From positions 62,001 through 126,000 of the forward strand of contig RFGF01000015.1 in the NCBI GenBank assembly GCA_003695915.1: a stretch of 64,000 nucleotides of DNA. The letters run 5' to 3'. The translations under genes were made by a program, and so were the position numbers. Numbering within the stretch: position 1 is the stretch's first letter; each line of letters opens with the position of its first letter. The notes beneath the pieces were generated by a model. It was not told where the DNA came from. It saw only the letters and a list, made by a program, of their open reading frames with translations, and searched no databases. The stretch is from Nitrospirota bacterium (GTDB lineage: Bacteria; Nitrospirota; Nitrospiria; Nitrospirales; UBA8639). This document shows, piece after piece, positions 12,128 to 62,021 of the stretch.

Positions 12128-13279
12128 CTACTGGCCCCCTACCGGCAAGGTTAACGTGGGCGCGGGATGAATCACTTGGCCAGCCTGCAATCTGAATAAT
12201 TGTTGCAGGAGGAGAAAACTGGACTTGGATTGGAGATCATCGTCTGCAATATAAAACCAGGCGCCTCGATAAGGAACAGCCAAAAAGGCATTAACAGGAC
12301 GTTCGCGACTCGATCGGACTCTGAACATCATTCCTCCCGGTGTTTCCCCCCAATCGAAGAGACGACCATCCGCTGTTTTCGTCAGAGTCACCAGTCCCGC
12401 CATGCGATGCTCTTCGGGAATCTCGATATTTTGGGACAGATAAAACAAGACGCTGGAAATCGACCGCACACGCACATCCCATTGCTGATTTTTGGGTTCG
12501 AGAATATTCGTGTTGATTTCGAACCGATAGATCGTTTGTTCCTCGGTGATCCCCAAAAGGGTACGAAGCTCCTCAAGGATTTCCGGGTGTGAAGGATCGG
12601 GGGTGATCTGAACGATCAAATGCTGCGTGGCCGGATCCAATCCCATGAGAATGCGATCCTCGAGTTGCAAGTGGCGTAGAAGCGCCAACAGGCGCTTGAA
12701 CCGTCGATAGGGGGGGACATAGTCGGGGGTCGGGCCAGAAGCTCCCGGGGCATTCGCAAGATCGTTGAGTCGCTCGATGCACAGACCGAACACCCGCTCG
12801 ATACTCCATCCCGACTGAGTCATTGCCAACAGGGCATCGATCGAAATGGGCGAAAAGATCCGCTGTAAAAGGTCCTTTCCCTGAAGGGGCGCATAGGAGA
12901 TCGTCGGACGTTGTGAATAGGTCACACCAAGGTTGGGTTTCAAAAAATCGCTTCCCGCGCCCAAATCAATATCCGCACCCACCCCAACAGTGGTATCCAA
13001 CGAGAGCGAAGCCGTGACAGACCCGACTTCGAGGAAATACGGAATATCTCGATAGCGGAGCCTGACCAGATTCAGCAACATCTGTTGTCCCAGGGAATTG
13101 ACGATGGCCTGATTGTAAGCAGGATGCATGGTTTCCAATGCTCTTGGTCCAAAGGTAGACTGACATCCTGCTATGAGCACGCTGAGGAGGCACGCGACGA
13201 CAGGCGCGTGCGAGAGGACTGGTAGATTGACGTACTCCCCACGCCTAAAGGCGGGGGATTCTCGATAACGAGACGGCAT
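12128..13279 (-). pseudogene. Outer-membrane-type lipoprotein gene, 3' part, interrupted by an IS200/IS605 element
   Basis: The frame encodes a 383-residue protein with a lipobox (LIAGCQST), then a ~340-residue conserved-looking body (MLLNLVRLRYRDIPYFLEVGSVTASL, RFEINTNILEPKN) of a family I cannot name. The native gene part ends at 13226; the first 18 codons (13279 down to 13227) come from the right end of the inserted element. Removing 13227-14946 joins this part in frame to the ATG at 14990 and restores a normal signal peptide (MSPFFPTRGKRLLF-TLPVLSHAP...), giving 380 residues. The present hybrid frame could still be translated from an ATG inside tnpB with its signal peptide intact, so inactivation is not certain. 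Confidence 0.85.
13237..13256 (-). repeat. Right-end hairpin of the IS200/IS605 element
   Basis: On the minus strand CCCCGCC-TTTA-GGCGTGGGG forms a stem with one unpaired T, ending 10 bases from the TCAA right cleavage site. Such imperfect subterminal hairpins are the TnpA binding sites in this family. The segment lies just downstream of the tnpB stop, where the 3' end of the omega RNA would also be made. Confidence 0.85.
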
Positions 13280-14456
13280 GATCAGCTCCGACCAGTTTCG
13301 AGCTACACCGGAGATGCGGTGTCCACCGTATTCCGATGGGGGACGCCATCGCCCCGATTACGTGGCTCGAACGGACGCCACGATACTTGTGCAGGATGTT
13401 CACTTGCCCCACAACGTCCCGGTGCGCCTTGAACCCGCAGGACGCACAGGAATAGTTCCTGCCCTTCGGGTTGTTGTGCTGGCCACAACGCGGACAATCC
13501 TTGCCGCTATAGGCTTCGTCCTGGAAATCCGACTCCTGCCAGCCGAGACGAAGGCCCTTGTACACCAAATAGGACCGAATGCGTCCGAGCGGAGCTTGGT
13601 GCATTCGCTGGTTCTGCCCCCGGCCCTTGTCATAGCCGACCCGAACATCGCGCAGATCGCCGAAGACGAGCTTTCGGACTCCTGCCTCATGCAGAGCCTT
13701 GATCCCCGCCGTCGTCAGCTTGTGCTCGATATCCCGAATCTGGTTGTCCAGCTTCTTCAGCTGGCGTCTCTTCGACGTGATCAGTTTTTCACGGCGCTTC
13801 CCTCCTTTCTGTTTCCGGTCGATCTTGGCCGACAACTTCGCCTTGAGACGCTCACGGTATCGGCGCTTGGATCTGAGAAGTCGTCCGTTCAGGATGACAT
13901 GGACGTCGTCCGTCCCCATGACGGCGGAGTGGACTTCCCCGAGATCGACAGACGCAACGAAGCCTTGAGACGTTTCGCGCGGCTCGGTCTTATAGCTTGC
14001 CCGGAGTTCGTACTGCTTGCCGTCCCAGCCGAGCTCAACTTGGACCGGCTTGGCGGAGAGCCAGTCGTCGATGATGACCGGAGCTGTGCCTCTGGTGTTC
14101 GGGAGCACAAGCCTCCCCTCGCGCACCTTGATCGCTTGATCCTTCCAGATGATCTTGGAGAACTTCTTGCGTTTTCTGGGAGGTCTCAGATCTGGATTGC
14201 GTGTCCTCGCTCGTCGCCATGTTCTGAGCGCCTCGAAGAAACATTGGATCGACTTCTGGGCGGACTGAGAATGCAGTAGAGTGGGCTGCCCATTTGCGAG
14301 GAGACGCTGGAGCGTGCCTTCGGACAACCAGATTCCCTTGCGACGAACGATACGCCAGAACCAGACTTTTGCCATGGTATAGACTCGACCAGACTCCAAG
14401 GCGAACAGATCGAGCGTTTCGGACCGGCCGAGCTTGCGTTTGCGAACGAGGTACAT
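13245..14456 (-). CDS. tnpB: RNA-guided endonuclease TnpB (IS200/IS605 family accessory protein)
   Basis: A 403-residue TnpB, the transposon-encoded ancestor of Cas12. RuvC-I Asp is D171 in VASVDLGEVHSA. The zinc finger is C321, C324, C337 and C340 (CPRCG...CASCG), followed by the RuvC-III Asp, D347, in AHRDVVGQVNIL. At RuvC-II the usual Glu-Asp-Leu reads Gly-Asp-Leu (G266, D267), a variant that recurs in one TnpB subgroup. Known TnpBs cut DNA next to a transposon-associated motif equal to the left-end target, here TTTAC/TTAC, guided by an RNA ending in the right flank. It starts 3 bases after tnpA and is intact. Activity with the altered RuvC-II motif is uncertain. Confidence 0.93.
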   Translation of the reverse strand: MYLVRKRKLGRSETLDLFALESGRVYTMAKVWFWRIVRRKGIWLSEGTLQRLLANGQPTLLHSQSAQKSIQCFFEALRTWRRARTRNPDLRPPRKRKKFSKIIWKDQAIKVREGRLVLPNTRGTAPVIIDDWLSAKPVQVELGWDGKQYELRASYKTEPRETSQGFVASVDLGEVHSAVMGTDDVHVILNGRLLRSKRRYRERLKAKLSAKIDRKQKGGKRREKLITSKRRQLKKLDNQIRDIEHKLTTAGIKALHEAGVRKLVFGDLRDVRVGYDKGRGQNQRMHQAPLGRIRSYLVYKGLRLGWQESDFQDEAYSGKDCPRCGQHNNPKGRNYSCASCGFKAHRDVVGQVNILHKYRGVRSSHVIGAMASPIGIRWTPHLRCSSKLVGADHAVSLSRIPRL

Positions 14457-14459
14457 AGC

Positions 14460-14855
14460 CTAGACGTTCTTCTGATTCGCGATGTACTGCTTCACGGTTT
14501 CGAGGCTGACGCTTCCGATGGTCGCCACGAAGTCGCTGTTCGTCCAGAGAGTCGGAAGACGGGACTTGAGCCAGGTGCACTTCCTCCGAAGGTCGTGGCT
14601 GGAGCGGCCCTTCATCCTCTTGACGACCCGATGGATTCCGAACTGCGGATCGCATGCGACGAGCACCTGAACGTGGTCCGGCATGACCTCCATCTTGATA
14701 ATCTTCGAGTGCGTGTCCGGCGCAACCGTCTTGAGAATCGTCTTGTGTGGCTCATCTACAGGCGGGTTGAGAACGGATCGCCGGTATTTCGGACACCAGA
14801 CGACGTGGTATCGGCACAGGTGCACCACATTCTGGTTGTTGTTATACCCTTCCAT
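14460..14855 (-). CDS. tnpA: IS200/IS605 Y1 transposase TnpA with HUQ motif
   Basis: A 131-residue single-strand DNA transposase. Recognisable are HVVWCPKYRRSVL, VMPDHVQVLVACDPQFGIHRVVKRMKG, LPTLWTNSDFVATIG and the catalytic tyrosine in VKQYIANQKNV. The family metal-binding motif is His-hydrophobic-His (usually DHVHLLV); here the second His is Gln (codon CAG), so it reads HVQ. Circovirus and nanovirus Rep proteins use an HUQ motif, so activity is possible, but the change could also mark an inactive copy that needs help from another element. The gene begins 91 bases inside the left end and is followed directly by tnpB. Confidence 0.93.
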   Translation of the reverse strand: MEGYNNNQNVVHLCRYHVVWCPKYRRSVLNPPVDEPHKTILKTVAPDTHSKIIKMEVMPDHVQVLVACDPQFGIHRVVKRMKGRSSHDLRRKCTWLKSRLPTLWTNSDFVATIGSVSLETVKQYIANQKNV

Positions 14856-15039: not shown

Positions 15040-15720
15040 TTATGATGGTTGTCGGGGTTCCAGCTCAATAATGCCTTTTCGAATGGCCAAGATCGCCGCT
15101 TGGGTTCGATCATAGACATGAAGCTTATGGAAAATATTGCGTACATGGTTTTTTACCGTTTTTTCGCTGAGATCCAACACATTGGCAATTTCCTTATTCG
15201 TTTTTCCGTCTGCCACAAGTCGCAGGACAGTGATTTCGCGTTCCGTCAGATCGTGTTCCAACATGGCGCGCTTTTTGCCCTTGCCTTCGGCCAACAGGGA
15301 AAACTCCGCGAGGATTTTGCTGGCAACGGACGGGTGAATCAGCGATTCACCTCGCGACACAGCTCGAATCGCTGCGACGATTTGAGCCGAATCGCTATCT
15401 TTCAACAAATATCCGGTAGCTCCAGCCCGCACTAGGTCGAAAATGTACTGCTGTTCTTCGTACATAGTCAGTGCAATGACCCCGATATGCGGAAATTCTC
15501 GCTTGATGATGCGCGTGGCTTCGATGCCCGTCATACCCGGCATACTGACATCCATGAGAATGACGTCCGGCATCAGACTGCGCGCTTTTTCAACCGCCTC
15601 GCCGCCGGTCTGAGCTTCGCCGACGACCTGAATATCGTCCTTGGTTTCGAGAATGGCCGAGAGGCCTTCCCGAACGACCCGATGATCATCGACAATGAGG
15701 ACTTTCGTTCGTTTCGCCAT
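15040..15720 (-). CDS. NarL/FixJ-type response regulator
   Basis: Two-component transcription regulator of 226 residues. The receiver domain (residues 5-120) has the acidic pair in LIVDDHR, the phospho-acceptor Asp in DVILMDVSMPGMTG, and the conserved Lys in YLLKDSD. A LuxR-type helix-turn-helix follows at about residues 155-215 (LTEREITVLRLVADGKTNKEIANVLDLSEKTVKNHVRNIFHKL). The gene overlaps the 3' end of the histidine kinase gene by 35 bases, so the two form a cognate, translationally coupled pair. Targets are unknown. Confidence 0.95.
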   Translation of the reverse strand: MAKRTKVLIVDDHRVVREGLSAILETKDDIQVVGEAQTGGEAVEKARSLMPDVILMDVSMPGMTGIEATRIIKREFPHIGVIALTMYEEQQYIFDLVRAGATGYLLKDSDSAQIVAAIRAVSRGESLIHPSVASKILAEFSLLAEGKGKKRAMLEHDLTEREITVLRLVADGKTNKEIANVLDLSEKTVKNHVRNIFHKLHVYDRTQAAILAIRKGIIELEPRQPS

Positions 15721-16900
15721 ACGTTACAAGCTCGAGTTCCGTCGGGACCCGAATCGTCACACGCGTCCCATGGCCGCGTTTGGAATCCCAGACGACTTCC
15801 CCGCCCAACATGCGCGCACGTTCCATCATACCACGGAGACCGAAATGATCCCACTTTTCCGGATCTCGGAAGACGGCTCGCACATTAAACCCTTGGCCAT
15901 TGTCCGTAATGGTCACCACAATGTCTCGTCGCCGCATGTGCAATTTGACAGCGACGCGCGTCGCTCGTGCATGCTGGCTGACATTGCTCAAGGCTTCCTG
16001 CACCATGCGAAAAAGAAACACTTTCGTTTTCGATCCGATCCGTGACTCATCACAGACGGCCCGAAATTCCGTTCGAATGCGATGATGTTGCTCATAGGAC
16101 TTTAAATAATTCGACAGCGCGGGAACGAGTTCGAGATTTTCGTAATGGCCGGGGCGAAGGTTATAAATCACCTGCCGCGCCTCTTGAATGGCATGTTTCA
16201 ATTGTTTTCGCGTTTGATTCAACATCCCCTGACACTGGGAGGGATCATATTGCGCCAATTCGCGACATCGATCGAGCTTAAAATTCACGCCGACGAGCGT
16301 TTGCACCAAGCCATCATGGATTTCACAGGCAATCCGGGTCCGCTCATCGTTCACGGCGCTCTCTGCTTCTTCCTTCACATACAGACGGAACAAAGACTGA
16401 TATCGATTGAGGGTGCGCTCGATCTCAGCGGTCGCACGAATACGCGCTTCGATCAATTGCCACATGAATTTGGCGCTGGCTCCACCCACGATCGCCACCT
16501 GCGGAGCCCGTACTTGAGTCAGCGCACGTTCGACATCAGGATTGCCTGTGACGTCGATCACCAAATCAACGTTCTTTCGTCTCAGGAGCGTACGATAATC
16601 TCGCGTCACGGGAATTTTCAGTTGACGAGCCAACCGAATACCGCGCGTCTGGCTCCGAATCTCTGCAAGGCCCACAATTTTGACCAAGGGATCTTTGGCA
16701 AAAATTTCCATGAGGGCGGTTCCGCCTTTGCCACCGCCGATAATGGCCACACGGGTCACGCCATTACGAGAATGAAGCTGGGATTGCGTCGATGGCATAG
16801 AAGCCAGAGACGTCATGGCACTCTCGACACACGTCCTGCTCTTTTCATACCGCTCGATGTGGCCTTCGAGCAAATGGATGTTTTCCTCATCGAGGCCCAT
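15686..16900 (-). CDS. HisKA_3-type histidine kinase with N-terminal Rossmann nucleotide-binding domain
   Basis: A 404-residue soluble sensor kinase. Residues ~49-150 form a Rossmann-like domain: VTRVAIIGGGKGGTALMEIF with a GxGxxG-type loop, then VKIVGLAEI, a Lys-Ile-Pro strand, VDLVIDVTGNPDVERAL and APQVAIVGGASAKFMW, as in NAD(P)-dependent dehydrogenases. A helical linker (~150-185) leads to the dimerisation/phospho-acceptor motif RIACEIHDGLVQTLVG (H195) and an HATPase domain (FRMVQEALSNVSQHA, ITDNGQGFNV, HFGLRGMMERARMLGG). No transmembrane segment or PAS/GAF domain is visible. A cytoplasmic nucleotide or redox signal is the natural inference. The response regulator gene overlaps its end; nrdR, glyA and rplI precede it. 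Confidence 0.9.
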   Translation of the reverse strand: MGLDEENIHLLEGHIERYEKSRTCVESAMTSLASMPSTQSQLHSRNGVTRVAIIGGGKGGTALMEIFAKDPLVKIVGLAEIRSQTRGIRLARQLKIPVTRDYRTLLRRKNVDLVIDVTGNPDVERALTQVRAPQVAIVGGASAKFMWQLIEARIRATAEIERTLNRYQSLFRLYVKEEAESAVNDERTRIACEIHDGLVQTLVGVNFKLDRCRELAQYDPSQCQGMLNQTRKQLKHAIQEARQVIYNLRPGHYENLELVPALSNYLKSYEQHHRIRTEFRAVCDESRIGSKTKVFLFRMVQEALSNVSQHARATRVAVKLHMRRRDIVVTITDNGQGFNVRAVFRDPEKWDHFGLRGMMERARMLGGEVVWDSKRGHGTRVTIRVPTELELVTYGETNESPHCR

Positions 16901-19548: not shown

Positions 19549-20073
19549 GTGCGTGGATTCACGCTAAGCCACAACTCCCGTCGATTCGTCGAGGGAAAGT
19601 CATCGCGGACAGGTCCGGCAATCGTCCTGACCGGCCTGCTGATGATAGGAATCGCCTCTTCTCCTGGGATCGCTCAAGAATCGTCTGAACCGTCGACGAC
19701 CACCCCTTCGCAGATGGCCAGCGATGTGAACATCCGCTTGAGTAGCAAGGCTCTCATACCCCCCGATGAACTCATCGTCCACCGTGTGCCGTTGCATGGG
19801 CTGACCGTGGCTCAACCATTCGTCGGTCCCCCGATGTATTCCGCGATCTTAGAAGACGATCATCGCCATCGTCTCGCGATCCTGACAGCCGACGCACATG
19901 GCCAACTCACGGCGTATCTCTTGGAAGACATTGCGCTGGCATCTTCTCTTCCCGAGATCGGCAGATGTGCGCAGCATCGTCAGTGCGCCACGGATCGCAT
20001 GCCGGCAACAGGAGGAATCGCCTGTATCGCCATTTGCTTTCGAGAAGCCCTTATGGCTGAATACCTTCCATAG
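19549..20073 (+). CDS. Exported protein of unknown function
   Basis: From a GTG at 19549 (purine-rich AGAGGAAAAGGG upstream) the product has about 174 residues with a signal peptide TGPAIVLTGLLMIGIASSPGIAQ and likely cleavage before ESSEP. The mature part (MYSAILEDDHRHRLAILTADAHGQLTAYLLEDIAL) has a regular strand pattern but no family I recognise. The frame is open upstream to 19249 without protein-like character. The stop is three bases before the next ATG, so it is translationally linked with the helicase-like coiled-coil gene. Confidence 0.6.
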   Translation: MRGFTLSHNSRRFVEGKSSRTGPAIVLTGLLMIGIASSPGIAQESSEPSTTTPSQMASDVNIRLSSKALIPPDELIVHRVPLHGLTVAQPFVGPPMYSAILEDDHRHRLAILTADAHGQLTAYLLEDIALASSLPEIGRCAQHRQCATDRMPATGGIACIAICFREALMAEYLP

Positions 20074-20076
20074 ATC

Positions 20077-21600
20077 ATGAAGCTGTTCGACCTCCTGCCC
20101 TATTTCGTCGAGCAATTGACCAAAGAACGAGAGGTCGCGATGAGTACCGGGCCCGATGCCCCGCTTGTCGTACCGGAAACTCGGCGCATCAGAACCGTGG
20201 GATCCCTGCATGTGTATGCGCTTTCGTTGGATCATCCCCCGCGATTTCTCCAGGATGTTCCGCTGACGATTCTCCCAGGCAATGAATTGGAGCCCACGGA
20301 AGGATCGGTACTCTCCGTCGACGGTTCCGAAGTGCTCATCCAAGCCATGGATGCTTTCGGAGATGCTGTTCCAGGATGTACCTGCATCGCCGATACGTCC
20401 GGATTTTTAGAAACCGTATCCGGACGACTCCAGGAGATGAGCGCGAAACCTGAATCGTTTACCCTCGGCCCTGCGGAACGACTCGCTCCCTGGTTAAGCC
20501 CTGAAACCCGTCTCGGCGATGAACATCATTGGCCACCAGCTCCGCCTTCGGTCTTATCGATTATCTGGGAGAAGGATCCAGCCATTCGTCGCGCACAGCT
20601 CGGCGCAATGGCCGTCGAAGCTGTGCGCCAGAATAAGCGCATGCTGTTGTTAGCTCCCGATCATCATTCCGTCGACGACTTGGTGGCCGTGATGGCGCGG
20701 GCCTTGCGTACGGCAGCGCTTCCCTATCAGAGCCTTTTGAGCCGATATGAATTTCCGCTTCGTCAAGAGAGTCTCGGAATCAAATTACAGGAGCTCGGCT
20801 TTGAAACCTACATGTTTCAATTTTCCGCTAAAGCCAATGCGCACAAGAGCACCCTTCGAAAAAAATACGATCGTTTTCGCGAGCTCACGCCGCTCTTGGC
20901 CTATAAGCGCGAAAAACAAAAAGATCTCAACGAAGTGAAGCTGCTGGAGTGGCGTCTCCTGACGCAACTGAGCGAATGGCAGGCCAAGATTCGAAACATT
21001 GACAAAATCGTAGCCGAATACGAAGCCATCCCGATCTGGAAACGGTTGGCGATGCAAGCCGCAGGGAAAAACGTAGAAACCCTGGCCGAGTATCGAGTCC
21101 TGTACGAGCAGAAGATTCAAGCGCTCATGCGCGAGGTGGAAATTGCTCAACAGCGCATTCGCGAACTCACATCGGAAGCCGCAATTCCCAAAGACCTCCG
21201 ACCGGAATATGAAGAGCTGAAAGAAGAAATCGCGCGGTTGGGCGGAACTCAAAAAATTCGTGAAATGTTAGCGGCTGGCGAAGGCACCAATCGTCAAGCC
21301 TTTGCTCAAAATAAACGCCTTCTCGCAACAACGGCCGGTCGCGTGGTCTGCGACCCGCTCTTTCGACGCCTGCGCTTCGATCTCTTGATCGTCGACGATG
21401 CCACGAGCATTCCAGCCCCGTTACTTCTCGGAGCAGCGGGGATGATTCGCGAGCGCATCGTGTTAGGGGCTCGCCCTTCCCCGCGCAAGCAGGTGGCTCC
21501 TCGTGAAGAAGGATCAACGCTCTGGACTCAGCACATCGTCCCGATCGAAACTCCACTCCCTGCTCAAGCCGAGAGCATGGAGTCTTCGGCTGGTTTCTAA
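20077..21600 (+). CDS. Degenerate SF1-helicase-like coiled-coil protein
   Basis: A 507-residue protein with remnants of a UPF1/Dna2-like (SMUBP-2 type) helicase. Residues ~185-205, KRMLLLAPDHHSVDDLVAVM, match motif Ia (APSN..VDNL). Residues ~412-465, NKRLLATTAGRVVCD...RFDLLIVDDATSIPAPLLL...RIVLGA, match motifs II and III (FDxxIIDEASQ...VLVGD). The Walker A GxGKT is missing at ~155-175, the Walker B Glu is Asp, motif III GD is GA, and no second RecA domain follows. A long charged coiled coil fills ~255-400. It is probably not an ATPase; a structural or regulatory role is an inference. It follows an exported-protein gene by three bases. Confidence 0.7.
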   Translation: MKLFDLLPYFVEQLTKEREVAMSTGPDAPLVVPETRRIRTVGSLHVYALSLDHPPRFLQDVPLTILPGNELEPTEGSVLSVDGSEVLIQAMDAFGDAVPGCTCIADTSGFLETVSGRLQEMSAKPESFTLGPAERLAPWLSPETRLGDEHHWPPAPPSVLSIIWEKDPAIRRAQLGAMAVEAVRQNKRMLLLAPDHHSVDDLVAVMARALRTAALPYQSLLSRYEFPLRQESLGIKLQELGFETYMFQFSAKANAHKSTLRKKYDRFRELTPLLAYKREKQKDLNEVKLLEWRLLTQLSEWQAKIRNIDKIVAEYEAIPIWKRLAMQAAGKNVETLAEYRVLYEQKIQALMREVEIAQQRIRELTSEAAIPKDLRPEYEELKEEIARLGGTQKIREMLAAGEGTNRQAFAQNKRLLATTAGRVVCDPLFRRLRFDLLIVDDATSIPAPLLLGAAGMIRERIVLGARPSPRKQVAPREEGSTLWTQHIVPIETPLPAQAESMESSAGF

Positions 21601-21703: not shown

Positions 21704-23239
21704 TCACGCGTACCGAAGCGACGGAATTGGCGGACGCACCAGATTCCGGGACATTCTATCACGCATGTCGCAACCAGCGAGGCCGCTGCCATCAAGCCCG
21801 CGGGGCCGTTCCTGCCAATTCATATTGATCCCTACCTGCAGATTGTTGGTCACGAACTGAGTCGTGCGGATAAAGACATCGATGCCATCCGTGCCCATAT
21901 GATGGCCCAACGGGAACCCACGATGCCGCATTCCACTCACGTAGGTGCCATTCTTGTACCAAACCCCTGCCAGTTCCGGATGGCGCCGCCGAGCGAGATC
22001 CGTATCGGCATATTCGATTCGCAAGTCCAAGCTATCACCCTTGAAGAGTTGAGGGATATAGAGGCCCGTCAAGAAGGCCACCCGGCTCGGCAAGAGAAAC
22101 TGTGACCATTTATCCTCTGAGCCTAGTTCTCCGTACAGCTGAAGGCCTGCCGGAAACGGAAGAACATATGGAACGCGCGGAAGGCGCAGCCGAATGTCGA
22201 GCATGGCCTGTTCGTTCACCTCTAAATCCCCTGCTCGATTCGGGGCCTTCGTATAAGCATCGATAATGGCCTGGGGAAAGGATTGGCCGCGCCCGCGCCC
22301 ATCAAATTGCGTCAGGCGCGTGGCTCCGAGCTCTACCCAGCGACTTGGAAGCCAACTGATGCGCAAGCCGAACAGTTTGGCTCGAGGAAAGTCGCGATCC
22401 CGTTCCAAAGGGCCGAGAAACGACTGGATCTTCCACTGCCCCAAGACCCGGAAGACCCATGGCAGGTGAAACGGTTCATCGCTGTAGAGTTTGATCATCT
22501 CGAGCGGAAAAGCATGATCTGTGAGGAGCAACGAGCCGTGGTAGCCCGGCCCCCACCACGTGGTTTCCCGCCCGACTTCCAGGGCGATATTCGCCAAGCT
22601 CAGCTTGAGGCTAAACGTACGGAGGTAGAATTGCTTGTCGTTGGCGGTCGCGCCAATTCCCAGGATCCGGGGATTGCTGATGAATTTTGGCTGCCCGGCC
22701 AGCGCCAGCCAATTCCCCACTTCCACCCAGCCCCGTACATCTACTTGGGCTTGCAACCCATTCACAGAATATTCACCCGCGCGATTTGCTCTAAACCGTA
22801 CCGTTTGGCCTTCTCCGATCCAGGAACTATTCCCTTCGACTTGGAGTCGTCCGCCGAACCGAAACGACCCAACCCGGTTGCGGCGCTGCTGGTGTCGATG
22901 GCGCGAGGGAGCCAAGGCGCTAATACGCCGAAGTTCTTCGTGGAATTCCTCGATCAACCGTTCCAGCAACCGTTCAGCAATACGTTCGCGCCCGTCGATG
23001 GGGATCTGATTCGACTTGATTCGTGCGATGGCCCGTGCAACTGCTCTCGCCGCCTCCAGGCGGCTGTAGGGTTTTGGTGTGACCATGGCCAGGTCGATCA
23101 CTTGAAGATCGACCAAGCGCTCGATGGCCACATAGGCCCAATGATGTAATGGCAAATTGACAGATGCGAATGCCTCCAGCCTTGCGCTAAGCCCCAACCA
23201 GACGACAAGGATCAGCAGACCGGCACTGAGTCGCTTCAC
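21704..23239 (-). CDS. Wzi-family capsule assembly / outer-membrane beta-barrel protein with N-terminal SLH-like segment
   Basis: Exported 511-residue protein. A signal peptide (ILVVWLGLSARLEAFA) is followed by an SLH-like stretch (LPLHHWAYVAIERLVDLQVID...KPYSRLEAARAVARAI), then amphipathic strands of a barrel with the Wzi-family hallmark LEVGRETTWWGPGYHGSLLLTDHAFP. Wzi proteins sit in the outer membrane and tie polysaccharide to the surface (family knowledge). The C-terminus (DMRDRMSRNLVRPPIPSLRYA) does not end in a typical aromatic barrel strand, so a late frameshift near 21780 is possible. It is convergent with the helicase-like gene. Confidence 0.75.
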   Translation of the reverse strand: MKRLSAGLLILVVWLGLSARLEAFASVNLPLHHWAYVAIERLVDLQVIDLAMVTPKPYSRLEAARAVARAIARIKSNQIPIDGRERIAERLLERLIEEFHEELRRISALAPSRHRHQQRRNRVGSFRFGGRLQVEGNSSWIGEGQTVRFRANRAGEYSVNGLQAQVDVRGWVEVGNWLALAGQPKFISNPRILGIGATANDKQFYLRTFSLKLSLANIALEVGRETTWWGPGYHGSLLLTDHAFPLEMIKLYSDEPFHLPWVFRVLGQWKIQSFLGPLERDRDFPRAKLFGLRISWLPSRWVELGATRLTQFDGRGRGQSFPQAIIDAYTKAPNRAGDLEVNEQAMLDIRLRLPRVPYVLPFPAGLQLYGELGSEDKWSQFLLPSRVAFLTGLYIPQLFKGDSLDLRIEYADTDLARRRHPELAGVWYKNGTYVSGMRHRGFPLGHHMGTDGIDVFIRTTQFVTNNLQVGINMNWQERPRGLDGSGLAGCDMRDRMSRNLVRPPIPSLRYA

Positions 23240-24468: not shown

Positions 24469-24631
24469 TTTTCTTCTCCGGTAATCTCTCTCCTACTTCT
24501 TTTTCCTCTATAAATTCTTCTGAAGAAAGCTATGCTCGACATTTCAGGCGATAAATACCTATACCATGAAACGACTTCGACGGGGTGCAACAGTTGAAGA
24601 TTGTCCATTCACTCATTCCATGAGGTCTTCC

Positions 24632-25597
24632 ATGAGATGCCTTGCTCTCTTGTGGTGCGTATTGGTGGGTTTGATCAGCTCGAGTCTTGCGAATACCCAA
24701 ACTCCTCCTGAAACTCCGACTCCTTCGCAGACTCGCACCATTGTCGCGGATTTGTTGATGATCGACGGCGATTTCTATGTCGTGCGAGGCGAGCGTGGCG
24801 AGATCCGAATCGAAGTGACCCCTCGAACGACCGTCACCGAGGAATTCACATTCGGCGACCGTATCAAAGCCGTGGTTTTGCCAAACGACAAGGCCATCTC
24901 CATTGAACGGGCAGGCCCGAACGATCCGGTCGGCATCACGGTCAACGCCCCTCCAGCACCCACTACGCCTCCACTCAAACAGGAAGCACGTCCAGCGCAA
25001 ACAAAGGCACAGGAAGACGCCGCCCTTGCTCCCATCCCCGAAGAAAAAACACCACGAATTATTGTCGCGGATCTGTTGATGGTGGATGGCGATTTTTATG
25101 TCGTCAGAGGCGAGCGTGGGGAAATTCGGATCGAAGTGACCCCTGAGACTGAATTGACCGAAACATTCAAGTTTGGCGATCGTATCAAGGCGGCTGTACT
25201 TCCCAACGATAAAGCGTTGTGGATCAAACGCGCGACGCCAGACGATCAACCTGGTGTGTATACGCAAAAGCCGCCATCGCGCACGGCTCAGCCTTCCTCT
25301 CCGCAGGGTTCGAATGCGCAAGCCAAACGCTCGAAGGAAGCTTCAAGCGCAAGCAGCCTGGCACATCAACATGGCATCCGCACTATTGTCGCGGATCTGT
25401 TGATGGTGGATGGCGATTTTTATGTCGTCAGAGGCGAGCGTGGGGAAATTCGGATCGAAATCACACCAGAAACCAAGCTAACTGACACTTTTACATTCGG
25501 CGATCGCATCAAAGCCAAAGTGCTGCCCAATGATAAAGCCATTTCCATCGAGCGAGCGAAGCCAAACGACCCTATTGGTGTATTCGAGGCCAAATAA
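24632..25597 (+). CDS. Exported protein with three tandem ~60-residue repeats
   Basis: About 321 residues with a signal peptide (LALLWCVLVGLISSSLA). Three near-identical modules follow at roughly residues 35-95, 145-200 and 250-315, each reading IVADLLMVDGDFYVVRGERGEIRIEVTP...FGDRIKA.VLPNDKA..I.RA.P.D..GV. Linkers are rich in Pro, Thr, Gln and Ala. The module pattern (short strands, conserved charged turn) resembles a small beta-barrel of OB type, which is inference. GAGGT five bases before the ATG at 24632 supports this start; ATGs at 24620 and 24566 are in frame. Modules 2 and 3 share 76 identical bases, so one is a recent copy. Function unknown. Confidence 0.75.
   Translation: MRCLALLWCVLVGLISSSLANTQTPPETPTPSQTRTIVADLLMIDGDFYVVRGERGEIRIEVTPRTTVTEEFTFGDRIKAVVLPNDKAISIERAGPNDPVGITVNAPPAPTTPPLKQEARPAQTKAQEDAALAPIPEEKTPRIIVADLLMVDGDFYVVRGERGEIRIEVTPETELTETFKFGDRIKAAVLPNDKALWIKRATPDDQPGVYTQKPPSRTAQPSSPQGSNAQAKRSKEASSASSLAHQHGIRTIVADLLMVDGDFYVVRGERGEIRIEITPETKLTDTFTFGDRIKAKVLPNDKAISIERAKPNDPIGVFEAK
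25060..25135 (+). repeat. Direct repeat, copy A (identical to 25384-25459)
   Basis: These 76 bases, coding the core of the second module of the three-repeat exported protein, recur without a single mismatch at 25384-25459. The first module at about 24745-24820 differs at many third positions. Silent-site identity implies recent duplication or gene conversion between modules 2 and 3. Confidence 0.95.
25384..25459 (+). repeat. Direct repeat, copy B (identical to 25060-25135)
   Basis: Second copy of the 76-base identical segment, 324 bases downstream of the first and in the same frame, so recombination between the two would delete or add exactly one module without shifting the frame. Confidence 0.95.
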
Positions 25598-61822: not shown

Positions 61823-62021
61823 CGAACTCCCTTCCTCGCATCCTATCGATTCGATTGCTGATAAGCAGGCTCCGATGCATAACAAATCCTGTGAGGGATG
61901 GCCATGTTCATCTTATGGAACACAATATGTTTTTTCGATGGTTCGGTCCCGTTTCCTGTTTCCAACCACGCTGCAAACATCCCATTCCGGTCCAAGATCA
62001 TGGTTTACTGATATTGCAAAT

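Follow-up and report, generated by a model that had tools for sequence, protein, structure and literature searches.

The stretch of DNA considered here, referred to below as the window, covers 64,000 nucleotides (positions 62,001 to 126,000 of the forward strand) of contig RFGF01000015.1 in the Nitrospirota bacterium assembly GCA_003695915.1, which belongs to the order Nitrospirales. Two adjacent open reading frames (ORFs) on its plus strand are the subject of this report. The first encodes a 174-residue protein with an export-like N-terminus (EX), and the second, starting 3 nt downstream of the EX end, encodes a 507-residue protein related to one half of a UPF1-like helicase. We will use the term pseudo-helicase (PH) for the latter. 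The original prediction, made from the sequence alone, described the pair as an exported protein unaccountably coupled, three bases apart, to a dead helicase-like protein with a coiled coil, and both ORFs are present as described (Table 1).

The homology of PH has been established by several routes. The window protein alone matches the Pfam AAA_11 model below threshold (E 0.0023), while 29 of 31 family members match this model (PF13086), the best of them at E 1.6e-9. Among PDB entries the family profile finds DNA2 (E 8e-6), the match lying in the region of motifs II and III. When four intact AAA_11 helicases, taken from the window's genome and from sister genomes, are compared with the family by hhalign, the probability is 99.4 % (E 3.4e-21). 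The 451 aligned columns begin at the N-terminal barrel of PH, include the coil and reach motif III. The AlphaFold2 model of PH has a mean predicted local distance difference test score (pLDDT) of 87.1 and a predicted template-modelling score (pTM) of 0.72. When this model is searched with Foldseek, SETX, UPF1, IGHMBP2, Sen1 and DNA2 occupy ranks 1–16 and 18–27, rank 17 being a spliceosome chain, and the E-values against SETX, UPF1, IGHMBP2 and DNA2 lie between 1e-6 and 1e-12. The first RecA-like domain (RecA1), with the barrel and stalk of subdomain 1B and an insertion at 1C, is present in the model and in the Foldseek and hhalign alignments. PH is a homologue of the first half of UPF1/IGHMBP2-type superfamily 1B (SF1B) helicases, and the dead UPF1-type fold read from the letters agrees with the predicted structure, which matches UPF1-like RecA1 structures including that of IGHMBP2.

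The motifs of the motor are erased or degenerate. Walker A (motif I, GxxGxGK[ST]) occurs in none of the 41 distinct members, as had been claimed for the window copy, where WEKDPAIRR stands at the place of the P-loop. The Trp preceding the former P-loop is retained in 38 of the 41, and R171, at its former Lys-Thr end, is invariant in all of them. The predicted counterparts of motifs Ia, II and III can all be aligned in the window protein, motif Ia as LLLAPDHHSVDDL against LLVSNTNIAVDTAL. Motif II (DEAxQ or DEAS) has become DDATS in the window and D/E-D/N/E-A-P in most members; DEAP or DEGP survives only in some members of f2 and f3, two of the four PH families (f1 to f4), and these still lack Walker A. 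Motif III (GDxxQLPP) reads GARPS in the window where intact helicases have GDFRQL, and GD or GN without QLPP in relatives. Its Gly is kept in 40 of 41 members, mostly as GD, and GA (GAR) is peculiar to the window copy. The DD and GA versions of motifs II and III describe the window correctly, but GA does not extend to the family, and some f2 and f3 members keep DEA or DEG in motif II. The reported lack of a second RecA domain (RecA2; AAA_12, motifs IV–VI) holds more widely, with no AAA_12 match among PH members and, in the members examined, chains that stop ~40 residues past motif III. Judged from these sequences, ATP-driven motor activity is not expected of PH.

Table 1. Features of the EX–PH locus in the window and the evidence for each.
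Feature	Coordinates	Strand	Evidence or remark
EX, 174-aa exported protein, GTG start	19549..20073	+	ORF call; alignment of 15 members; AlphaFold2
Probable EX signal peptide, MRGFTLSHNSRRFVEGKSSRTGPAIVLTGLLMIGIASSPGIA	19549..19674	+	by eye
PH, 507-aa UPF1-like pseudo-helicase	20077..21600	+	ORF call, hhalign, Foldseek, AlphaFold2
PH residues 1–155: N-terminal helix, beta-barrel (subdomain 1B-like), stalk helix	20077..20541	+	AlphaFold2 secondary structure; hhalign coverage against intact helicases
Erased Walker A, PH residues 164–172, WEKDPAIRR replacing WGPPGTGKT	20566..20592	+	alignment
Antiparallel helical arm (coiled coil), PH residues 241–412	20797..21312	+	AlphaFold2 model; conservation by region
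Arm tip, PH residues 314–332, family motif YExLPIWKRLxMQxxGKN	21016..21072	+	column identity
Degenerate motif II, VDDATS (PH residues 439–444) replacing VDEAS	21391..21408	+	alignment
Degenerate motif III, PH residues 461–466	21457..21474	+	alignment
tRNA-Leu(CAG) 5' fragment, ending in the anticodon region	21713..21750	+	84 % identical to relatives' gene

The helical arm of PH occupies the place of UPF1 subdomain 1C, and in the model its helices comprise residues 242–313, 320–328 and 333–368. Intact UPF1-like helicases of the window's genome and of the order carry a coil at the equivalent place, between motifs Ia and II, so the coil did not arise with PH; the coiled coil noted between the motifs is real, but this protein shares it with others. 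It was already present in the two-domain UPF1-like helicases from which PH descends. In PH, however, the strongest sequence constraint has moved from the motor to the coil and its tip. Among pairs drawn from nine intact helicases, the median identity is 41 % in the motor (taken as the two RecA1 blocks) and 16 % in the coil, with the coil lower in 35 of 35 pairs. Between PH pairs the medians are 50 % and 61 %, and the coil is higher in 130 of 153. The pairs are not independent of one another, and the coil-minus-motor difference falls into two separate ranges, from −38.8 to −16.3 for intact helicases and from −6.1 to +29.1 for PH. The arm tip has the highest mean column identity of all PH regions (0.79). 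Of 43 near-invariant residues in the arm region 23 are polar, which suggests a contact surface in addition to packing.

PH has been found in 57 of 60 relatives, covering all 19 genera, and in a phylum-wide sample it occurs in 77 of 78 Nitrospirales genomes and in none of 168 genomes outside the order. The nearest named records that carry it come from metagenome-assembled genomes of Nitrospirales/Nitrospirae, at 52–58 % identity. Two of the three relatives in which it was not found (G028 and G035; the third is G042) have rplI, its usual neighbour, close to a contig start (540 and 556 bases away), which makes an assembly gap the likely reason for these absences; in G035 an EX fragment adjoins rplI near the same contig end, and the match obtained for G028 in the phylum-wide sample is an intact helicase. 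Members form a single length class of ~440–520 residues. In the tree PH is monophyletic with 100 % ultrafast bootstrap, f4 branching off first and then f2. The ratio of nonsynonymous to synonymous substitution rates (dN/dS) between close pairs is 0.04–0.24, and PH is under purifying selection across the order Nitrospirales. The degenerate motifs and the missing second domain would also be expected of a decaying relic or a truncated copy, but order-wide retention, one length class, these dN/dS values and the conserved coil leave that explanation scarcely any probability. Distribution, length class and dN/dS rule out a truncation or pseudogene, and every homologue examined lacks both Walker A and RecA2, in line with the view that the window gene is not merely a truncated copy. 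Other origins have also been rejected. A pattern-based scan gave no relative among viral contigs, and a Foldseek search against viral models returned only remote helicases and coils, which speaks against a phage origin. A role as a defence system was rejected as well, since PADLOC returned nothing beyond weak matches of the coiled coil to LmuB (E 0.14) and the gene is retained throughout the order.

Intact AAA_11/AAA_12 helicases are sporadic in Nitrospirales. Their presence in the window's genome, together with the CnuH/CnuE contacts through a coiled-coil insertion that have been modelled for CoCoNuT (PMC11090510), could be taken to mean that PH is an inactive subunit completing or regulating an intact UPF1-like helicase encoded elsewhere. 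This is very improbable, as such helicases were not found in several 98–100 %-complete genomes that carry PH, and an obligate partnership with an intact AAA_11 helicase is ruled out by their sporadic occurrence. PH does not depend on an intact relative, as in four genomes (G018, G038, G054 and G056) there is neither an AAA_12 match nor any AAA_11 match besides PH. A split helicase with RecA2 encoded elsewhere was likewise rejected, since G018, G001, G054, G038 and G056 give no AAA_12 match.

The N-terminus of EX has, by eye, a basic and a hydrophobic stretch with an A-x-A-like site at its end, and hydrophobic N-termini are similar among the other members in an alignment of 15. Its AlphaFold2 model has a mean pLDDT of 79.5, and values for most of the mature domain exceed 90. 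This domain consists of five strands and two helices, and four cysteines lie in the C-terminal part (C146, C151, C159 and C163 in window numbering). EX has no significant match in Pfam or NCBIfam or among PDB sequences and folds. It is present in f1 and f2, directly upstream of PH unless a contig end intervenes, and no copy was found in f3 or f4; one f1 genome (G030) has retained PH and lost EX. In nearly all genomes with both genes, the EX stop overlaps the PH start by 4 nt (ATGA/GTGA) or precedes it by 2 to 7 nt, the exceptions being locus L008 and the f2 loci L080 and L089, where the PH start is ambiguous, and L011, where the gap is larger. This arrangement, read from the sequence, points to coupled translation.

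The near contact of the two genes, and the observation that EX never occurs without PH except at contig breaks, would fit a single envelope-linked system with a cytoplasmic and a periplasmic part, for example a transporter or an envelope sensor. We regard such a system as decidedly unlikely. EX is missing from f3, f4 and G030 while PH stays under constraint, no third transporter or sensor gene is conserved beside the pair, and PH has no export or membrane segment recognisable by eye. The unexplained pair singled out in the original prediction is thus real and tightly coupled where it exists, but it is not the basic unit, because f3, f4 and one f1 genome have PH without EX; the constant co-occurrence that was put forward as a check does not hold. 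As a separate observation, the place of EX in G030, between rplI and PH, is taken by a repeat-bearing sequence (MDSRLLTSGMTE...; L110, 8300–9100).

PH is probably one half of a UPF1-like (SF1B) helicase that has been retired as a motor and now serves as a non-enzymatic binding or adaptor protein acting through its coil. The barrel, stalk and dead RecA1 would form a rigid base, and this base would hold out the arm, which has ~70 residues per strand. With its conserved tip and conserved charged residues, the arm could then bind a fixed partner without ATP turnover, and this partner would probably be a protein of a housekeeping machine. EX would be an accessory, present in two of the four families, with its production tied to that of PH; as an exported protein it is unlikely to contact PH directly. 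The prong of Sen1, the counterpart of the PH arm, is reported as indispensable for termination, and a role in protein contacts has been suggested for it (PMC5452015). As a model for the arm, the prong offers a parallel and not evidence. A more specific scenario, which is possible but rather doubtful, is that the ancestor of Nitrospirales had a UPF1-like helicase whose motor was lost and whose coil became a near-universal core factor that docks or inserts the arm on a central machine such as RNA polymerase, the ribosome or the replisome, a mechanical re-use of a Sen1-type prong.

The same structural elements could also be read differently. PH might be a nucleic-acid reader. The dead SF1 motor would then recognise DNA or RNA, using the barrel (1B) and the coil (the 'prong', 1C) that flank the former channel entry. 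Such a role has a precedent in RecC and AddB, in which an inactivated SF1 helicase domain scans single-stranded DNA (PMC4824097). The barrel and prong of UPF1-like helicases lie at the nucleic-acid entry, the Sen1 prong is required for unwinding and termination (PMC5452015), and PH has conserved Lys and Arg residues in an N-K-R motif (187–188) and in the tip (R323, K331). On the other hand, PH lacks RecA2 and shows no conservation of motif Ia, through which active helicases contact nucleic acid, making a reader unlikely.

Several points weigh against the adaptor interpretation. The binding partner of the arm is hypothetical. The RecA1 core is still ~50 % conserved and may therefore do more than hold the arm. 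In f4, the most divergent family, the coil is only 29 % identical to that of the window copy, so the partner or the contact may differ there. The global template-modelling (TM) scores of the structure matches are low (0.3–0.4) because of the long arm and the missing RecA2, and the export of EX is a reading of N-termini judged by eye.

In the surrounding region, PH, with or without EX, usually stands head to head with rplI-glyA-nrdR. Its recurrent neighbours are EX, rplI, glyA, nrdR, a two-component pair and tRNA-Leu, and those of the window (rplI, nrdR, the histidine kinase and the response regulator) have been confirmed by Pfam. The kinase (15686–16900, minus strand) has an N-terminal NAD-binding Rossmann domain (GFO_IDH_MocA, HisKA_3, HATPase) and adjoins a LuxR-type response regulator, a pair conserved beside nrdR in relatives. 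In f4 the order tatA-PH-ftsK, with both genes identified by reading the sequence, takes the place of rplI beside PH: an FtsK-like gene directly follows PH in L082 and L084, and a TatA-like gene precedes it in L082.

In most genomes PH is followed by a tRNA-Leu(CAG) gene. It lies downstream of PH in 24 neighbourhoods of f1–f3, mostly 60–270 bp away and once on the opposite strand, and it is still there in G010, where rplI is elsewhere. In the window only a fragment remains, ~113 bp after PH, where relatives have the whole gene, and the intact copy of this genome is on another contig (C50). The fragment suggests a past integration or rearrangement at the tRNA. The PH-linked tRNA-Leu(CAG) is an integration hot spot in Nitrospirales; tyrosine-recombinase-like genes directly follow it at L074, L075, L007, L009, L081, L083, L086 and L118. 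Elsewhere in the window there are an IS200/IS605-type pair of a Y1 transposase and a TnpB/Cas12f-like protein (13245–14855, minus strand) and a 343-residue exported-looking protein (24566–25597, plus strand) with three near-identical ~60-residue repeats (LLMVDGDFYVVRGERGEIRIEVTPET...) and a weak BOF/OB match (PF04076).

The UvrD-like branch offers known examples of dead helicase folds that have a function, namely RecC and AddB. In a small check of the literature, confined to open-access papers, no report of a UPF1-like half-helicase of the PH kind was found, and nothing relevant on a pseudohelicase in Nitrospira or on signature proteins of Nitrospirales. Pseudo-helicases as such are known, and what looks new is a UPF1-like pseudo-helicase with a single RecA domain and a conserved coil that is near-universal in one order. 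It allows the transfer of constraint from the motor to the coil to be measured directly against intact relatives within that order, and the case therefore shows how an enzyme becomes a scaffold. The Nitrospirales comprise the nitrite-oxidizing Nitrospira and their relatives. Being near-universal and order-specific in bacteria that include nitrite oxidizers, PH makes a good candidate housekeeping factor specific to this lineage.

Among known systems, the UPF1-like SF1B helicases (UPF1, IGHMBP2/SMUBP-2, Sen1/SETX and DNA2; PF13086 and PF13087) share with PH the barrel (1B), the stalk and RecA1, arranged in one and the same order, and the helical insertion at 1C. They differ in that PH has no Walker A, degenerate motifs II and III and no RecA2/AAA_12. 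The PH model also gives weak Foldseek echoes of SMC/Rad50-type ATPases, for example JetABC at E 2e-3; these have another ATPase fold and we take them to be analogous, not related. CnuH of CoCoNuT has a coiled-coil insertion in an intact UPF1-like helicase and is encoded beside cnuE, cnuB and cnuC (PMC11090510). Like PH, CnuH and the intact 750–1200-residue AAA_11 helicases of Nitrospirales have a large coil after the Walker A position and an OB/barrel domain on a stalk, but they possess a P-loop and both RecA domains, whereas PH has neither P-loop nor RecA2. The coil of the intact Nitrospirales helicases is moreover fast-changing and that of PH conserved, and no CnuE effector, McrB/McrC or TerY-P genes recur in the PH neighbourhoods. 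Neither do these neighbourhoods contain recB/recD or addA helicase-nuclease partners adjacent to PH, which has no nuclease beside it. RecC and AddB (SF1A, PMC4824097) resemble PH as SF1 helicase folds that have lost their ATPase motifs and are kept as binding modules. They are, however, UvrD-like, retain both RecA domains as a single-stranded DNA site and work within a nuclease complex, while PH is UPF1-like and has a single RecA domain.
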